A stretch of 64,000 nt of DNA, from contig JAAFJP010000002.1 in NCBI GenBank assembly GCA_013298125.1, forward strand, positions 186,001 to 250,000, written 5' to 3'. Below the pieces are notes generated by a model, which was not told the DNA's origin, searched no databases, and saw nothing but the letters and a program-made list of their open reading frames with translations. A program made the position numbers and the translations under genes. This DNA is from Cytophagales bacterium (GTDB lineage: Bacteria; Bacteroidota; Bacteroidia; Cytophagales; Spirosomataceae). Shown here in pieces: positions 46,195 to 58,819 of the stretch; the stretch's first letter is position 1; every line of letters begins with the position of its first letter.

Positions 46195-46500
46195 CTACAA
46201 ATTAGCCAAAACGTTACCGCTTATGTTTGTCTTAGATTTATTTCTACTTGATAGGTTGAGTATTCTAACCTCCAAAACTCTCTCAATATCTGAGAGGGTT
46301 TCAATCGTAAAATTATGTGTTCCGCTCAACCATTTGGTAATTTCTGAGGGTTTACGACCTACTTTATCAGCAAACTGTTTTTTGCCATAGCCTTTGTCTT
46401 TCATGGCATCATCAATCATACAGGCAATACGCATTTTGCGGTCTGTTCTTGCCTGTTGTTCAGGCGTAATTTCTGCCAATAAGTTATCTAAAAGTGTCAT
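46195..46500 (-). CDS. XRE-family antitoxin (HigA-like)
   Basis: 101 residues. The central helix-turn-helix is KGYGKKQFADKVGRKPSEITKWLSGTHNFTIETLSDIERVL (about 36-76), a typical XRE domain. The first 35 residues are helical and the last 25 are basic and disordered. It is 11 bases behind the toxin-like gene on the same strand, the reverse-order arrangement of HigBA-type modules. It would bind its own promoter and neutralise the toxin. Confidence 0.85.
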   Translation of the reverse strand: MTLLDNLLAEITPEQQARTDRKMRIACMIDDAMKDKGYGKKQFADKVGRKPSEITKWLSGTHNFTIETLSDIERVLEVRILNLSSRNKSKTNISGNVLANL

Positions 46501-46511
46501 TGTTGTATATT

Positions 46512-47015
46512 TTAAAAATCTTCGTTATTGTCTAAATCTTCAAAAGTAAAATCCCCTGTAAAATCATTAAAATTACCATTCCATTTTAAATCACCGTCCT
46601 GCATTGCTTGGCTCAGGCGTTTTGATATTTCACGAAGTAGGTAGTTTTCTTTCTTTAATTTCGGGTCGTCCTGCAAAGCTCTCACATTCTTTGCACCGCC
46701 ACCCCCTAAAACCAATAAAACCGAACCATAACGAATACAATAAAGGCGTAATTTACGGTTAGATTCATCATAGAGTGCTTCAATTCCATCACCAAGTTTC
46801 CCTTCGGCTTTTTTGAAAAGATGCTCTCTTGCACCTTCTTTGTTTGAAATACTCTTAATTCTGGTCAAGATTTCGAGTAATTCATCGTGATAGGCTTCGT
46901 CATTTTCATCCAAGAAATGTTCAAATAAATTTTTGTCGTCATTATCCACAACGATTGAATAAATTTGAGTCTTTTGACCGCTTAGTTTATCTAATTTTAC
47001 AAGTTTTAATTTCAC
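46512..47015 (-). CDS. RelE/HigB-like toxin of an unusually long type
   Basis: 167 residues. The ParE/RelE-like core is seen in GARE HLFKKAEGKLGDGIEALYDESNRKLRLYCIRYGSVLLVLGGGGAKN (about 58-107), with the strand pattern LRLYCIRYG-VLLVLGGGG typical of HigB. It has an extra N-terminal part of about 50 residues with Asp/Glu-rich helices and an acidic C-terminal tail (EDLDNNEDF), against the usual 90-120 residues. It lies upstream of the antitoxin in one operon. Such toxins cleave ribosome-bound mRNA. Toxicity is inferred from family and context only. Confidence 0.72.
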   Translation of the reverse strand: MKLKLVKLDKLSGQKTQIYSIVVDNDDKNLFEHFLDENDEAYHDELLEILTRIKSISNKEGAREHLFKKAEGKLGDGIEALYDESNRKLRLYCIRYGSVLLVLGGGGAKNVRALQDDPKLKKENYLLREISKRLSQAMQDGDLKWNGNFNDFTGDFTFEDLDNNEDF

Positions 47016-47212: not shown

Positions 47213-47284
47213 TAGTCCGTACGGGAATCGAACCCGTGTTTCATCCGTGAAAGGGACGTGTCCTAACCCCTAGACGAACGGACC
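47213..47284 (-). tRNA. tRNA-Glu (anticodon TTC)
   Basis: 72 nt on the minus strand. Acceptor GGTCCGT with ACGGACT, D-arm GTCT...GGAC, anticodon stem CGTCC/GGATG with loop CTTTCAC, hence anticodon TTC, and T-arm ACGGG-TTCGAAT-CCCGT. The CCA end is not encoded. The discriminator base is A. Confidence 0.97.
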
Positions 47285-49353: not shown

Positions 49354-50031
49354 ATGAAAAAACTAATTGTCTTACTCTCCGCTTTTTTTATTTTTAATCA
49401 ATCTTCAAAGGCTCAGACTTGTGGGTATTTATTGCTAACCAACAATACAGAAGTCGAAATGTCGATGTATGATAAAAAAGGGAATCCTTCTGGAAAAGTG
49501 GTTTATAAAGTTTTATCCAGCAATGGAACTCAGGCAAAAGTCAATTCAAAAGTATTCAGCGAAAAAGGAAAAGAATTGACCTCAGCCGAAGGAACGTACA
49601 AATGCGATGGAGGTAATTTTTCAGTGGATATGAAGGCTTTATTACCAGGCGAACAAGCCAAGACAATGGAAATGAAGGATATGGAGATAAAAAGCAATAA
49701 TGCTTCCTTGAATTATCCGAGTTCGATGAGCGTCGGGGCAAAGTTACCCGACAATGAATTCTCAGCCGATACCTATACGGGAGGCATGAAAATTATGTCG
49801 ATGACCTTGAAAGTTACAGACAGAAAAGTGGAAGCAAAAGAAAGCCTCACAACACCCGCAGGGACGTATGAGTGTTATAAAATTACGAGTAATCAGAACG
49901 TTAAAGCCATTTTTAATATGACTATGCAAACGACAGAATGGTTTAGTCCAAATGTGGGCGTTATCAAAACAGAGACATACAGAAAAGGTGATTTAGTATC
50001 ATCAATGATGATTACTAAAATTACGAAATAG
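49354..50031 (+). CDS. secreted TapB-like (DUF3108-type) protein
   Basis: 225 residues. The signal peptide ends at SKAQ (about 21). The mature protein has the beta-barrel-like repeat pattern of TapB/DUF3108 proteins: YLLLTNNTEVEMSMYDKKGNPSGKVVYKV, SVGAKLPDNEFS, and the closing KESLTTPAGTYECYKITSNQNV...TTEWFSPNVGVIKTETY. The last segment, P-A-G-T-Y-x-C-Y-K and W-F-x-x-x-x-G, is the best family mark. No enzymatic role is known. Followed by a terminator. Confidence 0.78.
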   Translation: MKKLIVLLSAFFIFNQSSKAQTCGYLLLTNNTEVEMSMYDKKGNPSGKVVYKVLSSNGTQAKVNSKVFSEKGKELTSAEGTYKCDGGNFSVDMKALLPGEQAKTMEMKDMEIKSNNASLNYPSSMSVGAKLPDNEFSADTYTGGMKIMSMTLKVTDRKVEAKESLTTPAGTYECYKITSNQNVKAIFNMTMQTTEWFSPNVGVIKTETYRKGDLVSSMMITKITK

Positions 50032-50161: not shown

Positions 50162-50236
50162 ACAAAATAAAAAGAGCATCGCCATAAGCAATGCCCTTTC
50201 CCGTCTTACCTCTAAACCTATTTAACTATGAAAAAT
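50162..50236 (-). ncRNA. array unit A
   Basis: Standard core, but a different hairpin: on the minus strand GCATTGC-TTATG-GCGATGC, followed by TCTTTTTATTTTG. The fifth pair is U-G in minus-strand RNA and would be a C-A mismatch in plus-strand RNA. Confidence 0.65.
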
Positions 50237-50264
50237 AACTGCACTATTCTGTCTAAAAATTGCC

Positions 50265-50324
50265 ACCCTTTCCCGTCTTACCTGTAAAGCTATCGATTCG
50301 GCGTTCCGATTAACTATGAAAAAT
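50265..50324 (-). ncRNA. array unit B (divergent, no terminator)
   Basis: The core's middle is replaced by a longer G/C-rich stretch (CGGAACGCCGAATCGATAGC); after AAGGGTGGCAATTTTTAG no hairpin is present. It is probably decayed, or expressed together with unit A. Confidence 0.45.
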
Positions 50325-50400
50325 AACTGCACTATTCTGTTTTAGAAACTAATTAAATACTCCATCAAATCTCTTTCCTCAATCTTGAAATAATTAGCTT

Positions 50401-50472
50401 GAAAAAAAGTGGTGTCTCCAAAGGAAACACCCTTTCCCGTCTTACCTCTAAACCTATTTAACTATGAAAAAT
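50401..50472 (-). ncRNA. array unit C
   Basis: Standard core; hairpin at 50411-50431 on the minus strand GGTGTTTCC-TTT-GGAGACACC, followed by ACTTTTTTTC. One U-G pair (minus) is C-A on the plus strand. A TTTG lies 21 bases before a TAGATTTT box directly in front of the core, a promoter-like arrangement. Confidence 0.7.
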
Positions 50473-50533
50473 CTAATGTCTTTTTATTACTTCTTTCAAA
50501 TCTACCCTTTTCCGCTTTCTCTTAATTTTGATT

Positions 50534-50606
50534 TGAAAAAAAGTGGTGTCTCCAAGGGAAACACCCTTTCCCGTCTTACCTCTAAACCTATTTAACTATG
50601 AAAAAT
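50534..50606 (-). ncRNA. array unit D
   Basis: Standard core; hairpin at 50545-50565 with the same U-G pair as unit C; tail ACTTTTTTTC. No clear promoter in front (AAAATTTTTC instead of TAGATTTTTC). Confidence 0.65.
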
Positions 50607-50641
50607 TTTTTATTTCTGTCGCTACTTTGATTTGTTAGCTT

Positions 50642-50713
50642 GAAAAAAAGTGGCGTTTCCAAGGGAAACGCCCTTTCCCGTCTTACCTCTAAACCTATTT
50701 AACTATGAAAAAT
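50642..50713 (-). ncRNA. array unit E
   Basis: Standard core; hairpin at 50652-50672 is GGCGTTTCC-CTT-GGAAACGCC, perfect, with C-G where units C, D and G have U-A at the third pair: a compensatory change. Tail ACTTTTTTTC. Confidence 0.7.
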
Positions 50714-50774
50714 CTAATATCTTTTGTAATTCACTCTCTCATTTCACTCTCTTCAACCTTTGATTTATTAGTTT

Positions 50775-50846
50775 GAAAAAAAAGTGGTGCCTCCAAGGGA
50801 AACGCCCTTTCCCGTCTTACCTCTAAACCTATTTAACTATGAAAAA
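50775..50846 (-). ncRNA. array unit F
   Basis: Standard core; hairpin at 50786-50806 reads GGCGTTTCC-CTT-GGAGGCACC on the minus strand, with two U-G pairs and one C-A mismatch; on the plus strand it would have two mismatches. TTTG lies 20 bases before TAGATTTT in front of the core. Confidence 0.65.
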
Positions 50847-50890
50847 TCTAATGTCTCTTTTATTCTCTATCAAATTCAGTCTATTGATTT

Positions 50891-50962
50891 GAAAAAAAGT
50901 GGTGTTTCCAAGGGAAACACCCTTTCCCGTCTTACCTCTAAACCTATTTAACTATGAAAAAT
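50891..50962 (-). ncRNA. array unit G
   Basis: Standard core; hairpin at 50901-50921 GGTGTTTCC-CTT-GGAAACACC, perfect, tail ACTTTTTTTC. Units H and I lie directly upstream without a terminator, so the terminator of G may serve all three. Confidence 0.7.
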
Positions 50963-50983
50963 CTAATGTCTGATTCTTGTGTC

Positions 50984-51121
50984 GCCCTTTCTCGTCTTAC
51001 CTCTAAATCTATCGGGCAACGTTTGCTTAACTATGAAAAATCTAATGTTTTGATTCTTGTGTCACCCTTTCCCGTCTTACCTCTAAATCTATCGGGCAAC
51101 GTTTGCTTAACTATGAAAAAT
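50984..51121 (-). ncRNA. array units H and I (no own terminator)
   Basis: Two near-identical 58-base units (H 50984-51041, I 51064-51121) with the long core version containing GCAAACGTTGCCCG. Each is followed by GACACAAGAATCA instead of a hairpin. The spacing of 80 bases is regular. Probably a recent tandem duplication. Confidence 0.5.
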
Positions 51122-51389
51122 TTTTAATTCTAATTTTAAGAAAACCATTTGATAAAACTTCATACCAATCTCTGCTTAATATCTCCTTGAACGTAATATC
51201 TAATCAAAATGTTTCTTGGCTTTTTATTTATTGATAAACATCAATTTGCTTCTAAAAAGTTCCTGTATTTAGCTCTTTCGCTGTTACATTCTTTTAACGT
51301 TAGAACATTTCGTAAGTCACACAATTTTAAAAATGTTTTTTTTATTATTCTTAGAATTGTCTAAATGACCCTTTTTCTTAATAACGATG

Positions 51390-51420
51390 CAAAGTTCTGC
51401 AATATTTTATTCACTTCCAA
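51390..51420 (-). promoter_or_regulatory. candidate promoter upstream of the array
   Basis: On the minus strand, TTG at 51420-51418, 20 bases, then GAACTTTG at 51397-51390 followed by CATCG. This is one base off the TAnnTTTG box. It points into the array, whose first core begins about 260 bases away. The stretch between shows no gene. Confidence 0.5.
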
Positions 51421-51471
51421 ATTTTCCTTGCAAATGTCTGAAATAAATTTAACCATAACTACTTAAAAATC

Positions 51472-51490
51472 AATAGCCAAAGTGGCTATT
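51472..51490 (-). terminator. probable terminator of pth
   Basis: AATAGCCA-loop-TGGCTATT, 8 bp with a 3-base loop, followed on the minus strand by GATTTTTAAG; 126 bases behind the pth stop. The remaining A/T-rich bases 51122-51615 show nothing else. Confidence 0.6.
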
Positions 51491-51615
51491 TTGCTCAAAA
51501 TGGCATTATTTTGCCGAATTTTATTTTGTTTTAGTTCTCAAAAGTTTGCAAATATTTTGTTTGAAATATGCAAAACAATAGAAGCTATTTTTTGAAAAAT
51601 ATTAGAATAGTACAA

Positions 51616-52176
51616 TTATTGATTAAATAGATTCATGGTCTTATCTAAGCCCTGTAAGCAAAAACTCAGTATCATTTCAGATACACGGTCAAGGTGTTCT
51701 GGTAATTGTTCAAATTGCTCGCCCGTAAAGTTTCCTAAAACGTATTCAATTTGTCTTCCTTTTCCAAAATCATCGCCTACTCCAAAGCGTAATCGAGGGT
51801 ATTCGGGTGAGTCTAAAATCTCTTGAATATTGCGTAAACCGTTGTGTCCTCCGTGCGAACCTTTGGGTTTCATACGCAACTTACCATAAGGCAAAGCGAG
51901 GTCATCGGTAATGACTAAAATATTTTCTTTTTCTATTTTGAGTTCTTTCATCCAATAATTTACTGCCTTACCACTGAGATTCATAAAAGTGGTGGGTTTA
52001 ATCAAATGAATTTGCTTTCCCTTGTGTTTTATTTCTGTATGATAAGCGAGACGTTCCATCGAAAATTTCGTCTCAAACTCACCTGCGAGTCGGTCAAGTG
52101 CCATAAAACCGACATTATGCCGAGTCAGTAGATATTCAGGTCCAATATTTCCAAGACCTACGATTAGATACTTCAT
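51616..52176 (-). CDS. pth: peptidyl-tRNA hydrolase
   Basis: 186 residues. Releases tRNA from peptidyl-tRNA that drops off ribosomes. Motifs: VGLGNIGPEYLLTRHNVGFMALD (6-28; usually GLGNPG, here Ile for Pro), catalytic His20, LIKPTTFMNLSGKAV (about 58-72), ILVITDDLALPYGKLRMKPKGSHGGHNGLRNI (catalytic Asp near 92) and the C-terminal RLRFGVG. Length is normal. Single gene, upstream of the small-RNA array on the same strand. Confidence 0.96.
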   Translation of the reverse strand: MKYLIVGLGNIGPEYLLTRHNVGFMALDRLAGEFETKFSMERLAYHTEIKHKGKQIHLIKPTTFMNLSGKAVNYWMKELKIEKENILVITDDLALPYGKLRMKPKGSHGGHNGLRNIQEILDSPEYPRLRFGVGDDFGKGRQIEYVLGNFTGEQFEQLPEHLDRVSEMILSFCLQGLDKTMNLFNQ

Positions 52177-58601: not shown

Positions 58602-58745
58602 AATAAAATCGTATGCAGGCATACTAAATTTATATGTATCTACATTGATTTTCATATTTCATCACTCCAAAAAGTATATTCGTCAAAAACTATTGAAATT
58701 AACTTGCATTTAACAGTTATTTAATAGTAAAAAGCTATATATTTG

Positions 58746-58819
58746 TTTCAATTTTCATAGTTAAATAGGTTTAGAGGTTAAACAGATAAGGGCGGGAGCA
58801 TCTCCTGTCCTTATTTTTA
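58746..58819 (+). ncRNA. orphan copy of the small-RNA element
   Basis: 58752-58778 is identical over 27 bases to the core of units in the 50-51 kb array (TTTTCATAGTTAAATAGG... to AGAGGT), here on the plus strand. A TATATTTG box at 58738-58745 sits right before it, and it is followed by an unrelated hairpin (ATAAGG-inner GGGAG/CTCC-CCTTAT, 58786-58812) and TTTTATTT. The order box-core-hairpin-T tract is the same as in the array read on its minus strand. The rest of 58602-58894 shows nothing else. Confidence 0.72.

Follow-up and report, generated by a model that had tools for sequence, protein, structure and literature searches.

Post-transcriptional control in the Bacteroidota is known from a few small RNAs (sRNAs) of Bacteroides; in the account of PMC7366714 the phylum has no Shine-Dalgarno sites and Bacteroides has no obvious Hfq or ProQ. 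The closest described system is FopS (Rfam RF04319), a family of paralogous sRNAs of Bacteroides thetaiotaomicron that blocks translation at the susC start; its report gives 12-15 copies per genome and describes conservation within the Bacteroidaceae (PMC11697453). GibS (RF04182), also of Bacteroides, is one gene with two seeds and about twice as long as the units described below (PMC7366714). Among the open-access papers listed for sRNAs of Cytophagales, Arcicella, Flectobacillus or Spirosomaceae, or for LytTR together with sRNA, we found nothing on the present array.

Layout of the array and covariation of its hairpins

The window analysed here is the whole stretch of 64,000 nucleotides. Nine related cores lie on its minus strand between positions 50162 and 51121, and they were recovered as a direct-repeat family (D2) of 35 nt in nine copies at 50189-51094. 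When the whole genome (5.85 Mb, 72 contigs) was searched, the exact core (0 mismatches) was found at nine places, every one of them inside the array; both results bear out the nine copies and the positions listed for them in an earlier note on this DNA. The core pattern also occurred at five further places with three mismatches each, and these were attributed to chance because the reversed control pattern gave 11.

Six of the nine units, A (50168-50236), C (50403-50472), D (50537-50606), E (50644-50713), F (50778-50847) and G (50893-50962), have a short core and share the order ATTTTTCATAGTTAAATAGGTTTAGAGGTAAGACGGGAAAGG, 9-bp hairpin, T tract. The terminator stem of A differs in sequence from the others, and that of F contains one C-A mismatch. 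In the remaining three units, B (50255-50324), H (50965-51041) and I (51044-51121), the core is lengthened by bases placed after TTAA (14 nt in H and I, a different 16-nt insert in B), no terminator follows, and another unit is directly preceded by each of them. The hairpins and T tracts reported earlier for six copies were thus found where expected, while the proposal that each unit has its own terminator held for these six and failed for B, H and I. Tandem duplications that include the upstream spacer are visible in the array, and array size ranged from 1 to 9 units per locus among the loci read. A diverged single copy of the same family lies on the plus strand at 58750-58818, with the core GAGGTTAAACAGATAAGG instead of GAGGTAAGACGGG and a terminator of its own, and is the tenth member of the family in this genome (9 + 1 copies).

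Units from the window and from relatives were aligned in two ways. Alignment A1 holds 50 of 52 distinct units, leaving out one atypical unit (locus L022) and one single copy (L047) and trimming another single copy (L025); alignment A2 is confined to 43 array units, without single copies. In the 43 units, 92.3% of the stem cells were paired, compared to 46-63% when one side of the stem was slid, and two-sided changes were seen in all ten stem pairs. None of 500 shuffles reached the observed percentage of pairing, number of two-sided cells, pair types or covariation score; the number of pairs was reached by 43 of the 500. The six window units alone gave the same signal in weaker form (90.0% of stem cells paired; 40-65% when slid). 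The covarying terminator hairpins are therefore confirmed on a larger sample than the one on which they were first noticed. The short units and the single copy showed fold z values of -2.15 (unit G), -3.54 (unit A) and -4.65 (single copy), and the long unit I, at -0.11, showed no fold signal.

The strand can be read from the same stems. At the nine pairs 42-50 of the 43-unit alignment, the minus-strand reading gives 59 G-U cells and only four that are C-A or A-C and would be G-U on the plus strand; these counts, together with the T tracts, fix the direction as minus. As one of the four exceptions sits in unit F of the window, the direction claimed previously from G-U pairs stands in sum and not cell by cell. 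Conservation is strongest in a different part of the RNA: an alignment of 50 units and single copies has 25 unvarying positions among its first 31, and this most conserved, unpaired 5' half is dispensable for termination, yet other genera and the single copy retain it. Taken together, conservation, covariation, strand and the model matches given below lend good support, at the level of sequence, to the array being a multicopy family of small RNAs of about 70 nt read on the minus strand, as was originally proposed.

Distribution and resemblance to FopS

A covariance model built from the 43 units (R1, which contains no FopS sequence) was used to search relatives, a check suggested in the earlier note. 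Under strict filters, R1 matched 59 of the 121 genomes of the family and 23 of its 36 genera, many of the best matches being weak (about 33-45 bits); unit E scores 98.0 bits by construction, and the single copy 60.8 bits. Array-type matches occurred in records named Arcicella (A. aurantiaca DSM 22214 has the array) and Flectobacillus, in two Cytophagales metagenome-assembled genomes and in one record labelled Cellulophaga, the array of which resembles those of Flectobacillus. Exact-pattern matches in Acidobacteria and Clostridia (L040, L044) came without a model match and one in Arenibacter (L043) reached only 19.3 bits; all were taken as chance. No match to the array was found in the plasmid collection.

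The genomic position of the array is steady. It lies directly downstream of pth, the peptidyl-tRNA hydrolase gene (51616-52176, minus strand), and on the same strand, both in this genome and in 15 of 16 others (Pth identity 63-92%); in the sixteenth, G006, the array is cut by the start of the contig. The gene on its far side (49354-50031, plus strand), called TapB-like in the earlier note, matches Pfam DUF3108_like. By tblastn this gene also adjoins the array in G007 and G002, several of the fetched stretches ending before it. In most loci of three further genera (g2, g6 and g13) the single copy comes after the array and shares its strand; among the Arcicella genomes it was seen together with the array in three, where it is inverted and some 5-8 kb away. 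Elsewhere in the window, a minus-strand gene pair at 46195-47015 encodes an HTH_3 protein of 101 aa and a protein of 167 aa that has no match in Pfam, and looks like a toxin-antitoxin pair of the HigBA type; a tRNA gene at 47213-47284 (minus strand) is the sole window match at Rfam cut-offs.

The earlier note recognised no known RNA family in the array. This needs qualifying, since five of the six hairpin units align to the FopS model RF04319 end to end and on the right strand (21.1-23.1 bits, E 0.66-1.6; the sixth was not listed), as does the single copy (23.7 bits, E 0.16); all scores are, however, well below the RF04319 gathering score of 56 bits, and a strict-filter run gave no RF04319 match in this genome. 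Unrelated Rfam families score as well or better there (L20_leader, E 0.083; BTnc231, E 0.081), and the FopS matches to the units, taken one by one, are at chance level. The reverse comparison was more telling. Among 20 loci from an RF04319 search (81 kb), R1 matched 17 at the exact site and strand (E 0.0007-0.059), namely 15 of 16 above the RF04319 cut-off and two of four below it, many of the 20 being paralogs, so that the 17 matches are not independent tests; L128 and L134 gave no match and L135 gave one elsewhere. Pairwise, the single copy appears closer to FopS than the array core does: shuffles did as well in 2 of 5000 trials for the single copy vs 16 of 5000 for the array core at L141, in 13 of 5000 vs 88 of 5000 against the Rfam FopS consensus, and in up to 766 of 5000 at the most distant locus. 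Alignment A5, with 31 hand-chosen rows, shows clear 5' similarity between the units and FopS, whose seed (R1/R1') may be shared. A joint alignment (A6) of 39 R1 matches from 33 chosen sources, with E up to 0.08, has 97.3% of its stem paired, a value that leans towards the R1 structure to which A6 was fitted.

Both families have a single-stranded 5' part, UUUUUCAUaGU..UAGxUUUAaGGUUAA, followed by an intrinsic terminator, in about 65-70 nt, a layout found in the short units and the single copy and not in B, H and I. Both are multicopy, with 10 copies here (nine of them clustered) and 14 in B. thetaiotaomicron (PMC11697453), and the single copy resembles FopS genes in having a canonical promoter element. 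Unlike the FopS loci, which are scattered over many places, the array is a tandem one behind pth; its units lack a canonical promoter, score far below the Rfam cut-off and have a predicted target in a LytTR gene, susC start regions not being favoured. Common descent of the array family and FopS is, from these comparisons, likely and not proven; we do not file the array family as FopS because the Rfam cut-off was not reached, a promoter was not found at each copy and susC did not emerge as a target. With GibS the array shares 5' sequence and a lack of canonical promoters before its units (PMC7366714), but its match to RF04182 (28.4 bits, cut-off 115) is out of register with the unit start. LhrC1-7 of Listeria, in another phylum, are likewise multicopy siblings. 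They are named in a discussion of multicopy sRNAs (PMC11697453).

A broad model, R2, matched 31 of 395 genomes, a figure that is not a count of members: when read by eye, about eight matches outside the families with above-cut-off RF04319 matches resembled the motif, and at least six (L206-L211) resembled unrelated terminators. In a distant family of the class (f125, genome G739), locus L196 has two copies of a similar motif, TTACTTCATAGAATAAGGGTTAAGGTTAAG, 176 bases apart. Several distant members among L147-L166 keep ATAGGTTTAGAGGTTAA and the terminator while their 5' ends differ, as if the 5' part were exchangeable.

A predicted target in a LytTR regulator gene

In preferring start regions to coding controls, the first 33 nt of the unit exceeded all 40 shuffles; this is to be expected, because UUUUUCAU of the unit is antisense to ATGAAAAA, the opening letters of 56 of the 324 genes sampled. 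From the ranked list of these 324 start regions, a stand-alone LytTR gene (G000:C1:187363, 129 aa, PF04397, outside the window) was picked as a candidate before the full core was used, being fifth, tied, with the 33-nt seed. Its leader, aaCCCGTCTTATCTCTAAAtaaaatATGAAC, forms 18 contiguous pairs, G-U included, with GTTTAGAGGTAAGACGGG of the array core, the predicted seed and target elements being AGAGGUAAGACGGG in the array and CCCGUCUUAUCUCU in the leader. The pairing energy, -35.5 kcal/mol, was the best among 988 start regions drawn from 1.26 Mb of this genome, gene starts being, here as in the list of 324, the first ATGs of long open frames and not annotated genes; the next best was -29.0 and the mean -13.2 (sd 4.3). 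All nine window units pair with the leader at -28.5 to -38.2, and the single copy at only -16.4. Pairings of at least 14 contiguous bases were in slight excess over the 988 regions (nine vs 5.7 in shuffles); since such counts barely exceed those of shuffles, the case for LytTR rests on the energy rank and on conservation.

An ortholog of at least 65% identity was found in seven of the eight Arcicella genomes searched, this one included. The element CCCGTCTTATCTCT is kept in all seven, with 14-18 contiguous pairs in each and a single C to T change that can still pair as G-U, whereas much of the leader between the element and the promoter differs among them. Shuffled sRNAs paired as well in none of 1000 trials in six of these orthologs and in 5 of 1000 in one. 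The eighth Arcicella genome, G001, has the array; its nearest LytTR homolog (46%) is without the element, with a longest run of 9 or less, and was matched as well by 20 of 1000 shuffles of the single copy and 56 of 1000 of the array.

A genome of another genus, G008, has a LytTR ortholog of 51% identity with a leader carrying ATCTGTTTAACCTT, which forms 14 pairs with GAGGTTAAACAGAT of the single-copy core (-23.3 kcal/mol, equalled by 3 of 1000 shuffles). The array core pairs with that leader at a chance energy (-16.3, 204 of 1000 shuffles; a weak run of 13), whereas the G008 array units would pair with the Arcicella leader at -22 to -35.5. Because its core fits the Arcicella leader and not that of G008, the array in G008 must serve something besides LytTR. 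The leaders of two LytTR homologs in G012 match neither the array nor the single-copy core. Chance, or a protein-binding site, would explain the seven kept matches and the G008 exchange, which rests on one genome, less easily than it would a single case. The LytTR target predicted for the array core is what is new here.

Other targets were tried. The start regions of all 22 SusC genes above the TIGR04056 cut-off, with start codons assigned by a simple rule, averaged -12.1 kcal/mol (best -20.3) against the background mean of -13.2, and susC was rejected. Near-perfect antisense copies of the 5' end (up to three mismatches) were not enriched in the genome, with 12 places outside the family vs 40 for the reversed control. 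One extra antisense 14-mer was discarded as lying inside a coding sequence. Of the 12 places, L177 is within an open frame, whereas L180 and L175 (C4:40806) start genes and are kept as no more than weak candidates; the protein at L175 looks secreted, and with the full core this site reaches -27.3 kcal/mol.

Production of the RNAs and competing explanations

The single copy is preceded on the plus strand by TATATTTG (58738-58745), an exact match to TAnnTTTG, the Bacteroidota -7 promoter consensus; in eight of eight single copies the same letters begin at the same distance, 14 nt before TTTTCATAG. Before the array units no such canonical (sigma-ABfr) promoter was found: TAnnTTTG occurred within 30 nt upstream of none of 51 short units and one of 10 long ones, in a count from which units with less than 90 nt of upstream sequence and duplicated upstream stretches were dropped. 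An alignment of the gap between pth and the array did reveal a sigma-ABfr-like promoter on the minus strand at 51383-51423, with TTTG and the 24-nt block AATATTGCAGAACTTTGCATCGTT, which is invariant in the seven Arcicella genomes aligned and lies about 260 nt before the first window unit. Since the units lack TAnnTTTG and a promoter-like block stands before the array, the units use another kind of promoter or derive from a precursor.

Three further observations concern these upstream stretches. In a search for motifs by eye, GTGCAGTT was seen before some units, often the last one, and recurs across genera. Downstream of the promoter-like block, in the gap of about 500 bases between pth and the array (51121-51616, minus strand), the blocks TTAGACAATTCTAAG and GTGTGACTT are kept in most Arcicella genomes aligned, so the gap might encode another non-coding RNA or serve as a leader of the array. 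In Flectobacillus-type loci (L024, L039, L042, L048) a small inverted repeat, GGC..GCC, directly precedes one or two inner units; its letters differ, its pairing is kept, and it is perhaps a processing signal.

How the RNAs are made is a matter apart from their target, and a precursor would be compatible with LytTR. A single transcript, which the block at 51383-51423 may start (or which may come from pth), could cross the array and be cut into units. The invariance of the block, the lack of canonical promoters at the units and the constant position behind pth speak for such processing, as does the parallel of CcsR1-4 in Rhodobacter sphaeroides, homologous sRNAs that share a transcript with ccaF1 and mature through RNase E (PMC8307010). 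That system, in which several sRNAs possibly share one precursor behind a protein gene, belongs to another phylum and has a different cotranscribed gene (PMC8307010). Most read-through would be expected to end at the six intrinsic terminators within the array, whose conservation argues for separate 3' ends, so that we regard the precursor as quite possible while leaning somewhat against it. Most Arcicella LytTR genes (L235-L241) have a sequence resembling a promoter, CTTTGTATCGTT (in two of them TATTGTT), which is similar to CTTTGCATCGTT upstream of the array, and the LytTR genes and the array may be under the same control.

Other roles for the array were weighed. Array RNA might titrate an RbpB-like RRM protein, one site per unit, the LytTR match being incidental: the RRM-1 protein RbpB binds FopS in Bacteroides (PMC11697453), the present genome has one gene for an RRM_1 protein, and several distant relatives with differing 5' ends retain the box TAGGTTTAGAGGT(T)AA. 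Such a sponge would, however, explain neither the separate terminator of each unit nor the 14-base antisense element in seven orthologous 5' UTRs; of 98 genomes from the order 43 have RRM_1, and of the seven family genomes common to both samples one (G019) has units and no RRM_1 match and another (G052) has RRM and no units. We consider it unlikely. Amplified terminators or a REP-like element without regulatory role would account for the duplications that carry their spacers along, and many R2 matches do resemble ordinary terminators; but such passive repeats would hardly keep their 5' half, which termination does not need, as their most conserved part across genera and in a single copy with its own promoter element, making this quite unlikely. 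A plus-strand RNA in which nine start-codon-like sites soak up the single-copy sRNA was suggested by TTAACTATGAAAAA, of which the array holds nine copies and the rest of the genome a single one (inside a coding sequence); the G-U and C-A counts and the T tracts place transcription on the other strand and leave this decoy very improbable.

The explanation that we favour, and consider probable, is that the array encodes FopS-like trans-acting sRNAs of about 70 nt, amplified in tandem, which would block translation of a LytTR regulator in Arcicella. Each minus-strand RNA would consist of the unstructured conserved 5' part and the intrinsic terminator, with the core acting as the seed that pairs with the LytTR 5' UTR immediately ahead of the start codon. 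AUGAA at the LytTR start could in turn pair with UUCAU of this RNA, so that the sRNA would cover the region before and at the start codon. Expression, the translational block and a role for copy number are what we infer in addition to the complementarity itself; that nine copies raise the sRNA dose, and maybe speed the response, is a guess by analogy with the multicopy roles discussed in PMC11697453.

More tentatively, and with some doubt, these RNAs may belong to an ancient sRNA superfamily that spans the Bacteroidota, is marked by UUUUCAUAG...UAGGUUUAGAGGUUAA and a terminator, and has FopS as one of its branches; the Arcicella array would be a dose-dependent antisense repressor of a single LytTR regulator, and sRNA and target would have been re-matched between genera (the array core in Arcicella, the single copy in the genus of G008). 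A distant relative of FopS whose predicted target is conserved and nearly perfect would make this kind of post-transcriptional control older and broader than the gut Bacteroides, and the LytTR gene and its array would provide a simple sRNA-target pair for studying sRNA action without a Shine-Dalgarno site. The arrays of 1 to 9 units and the re-matching of sRNA and target would offer a natural series for such work.
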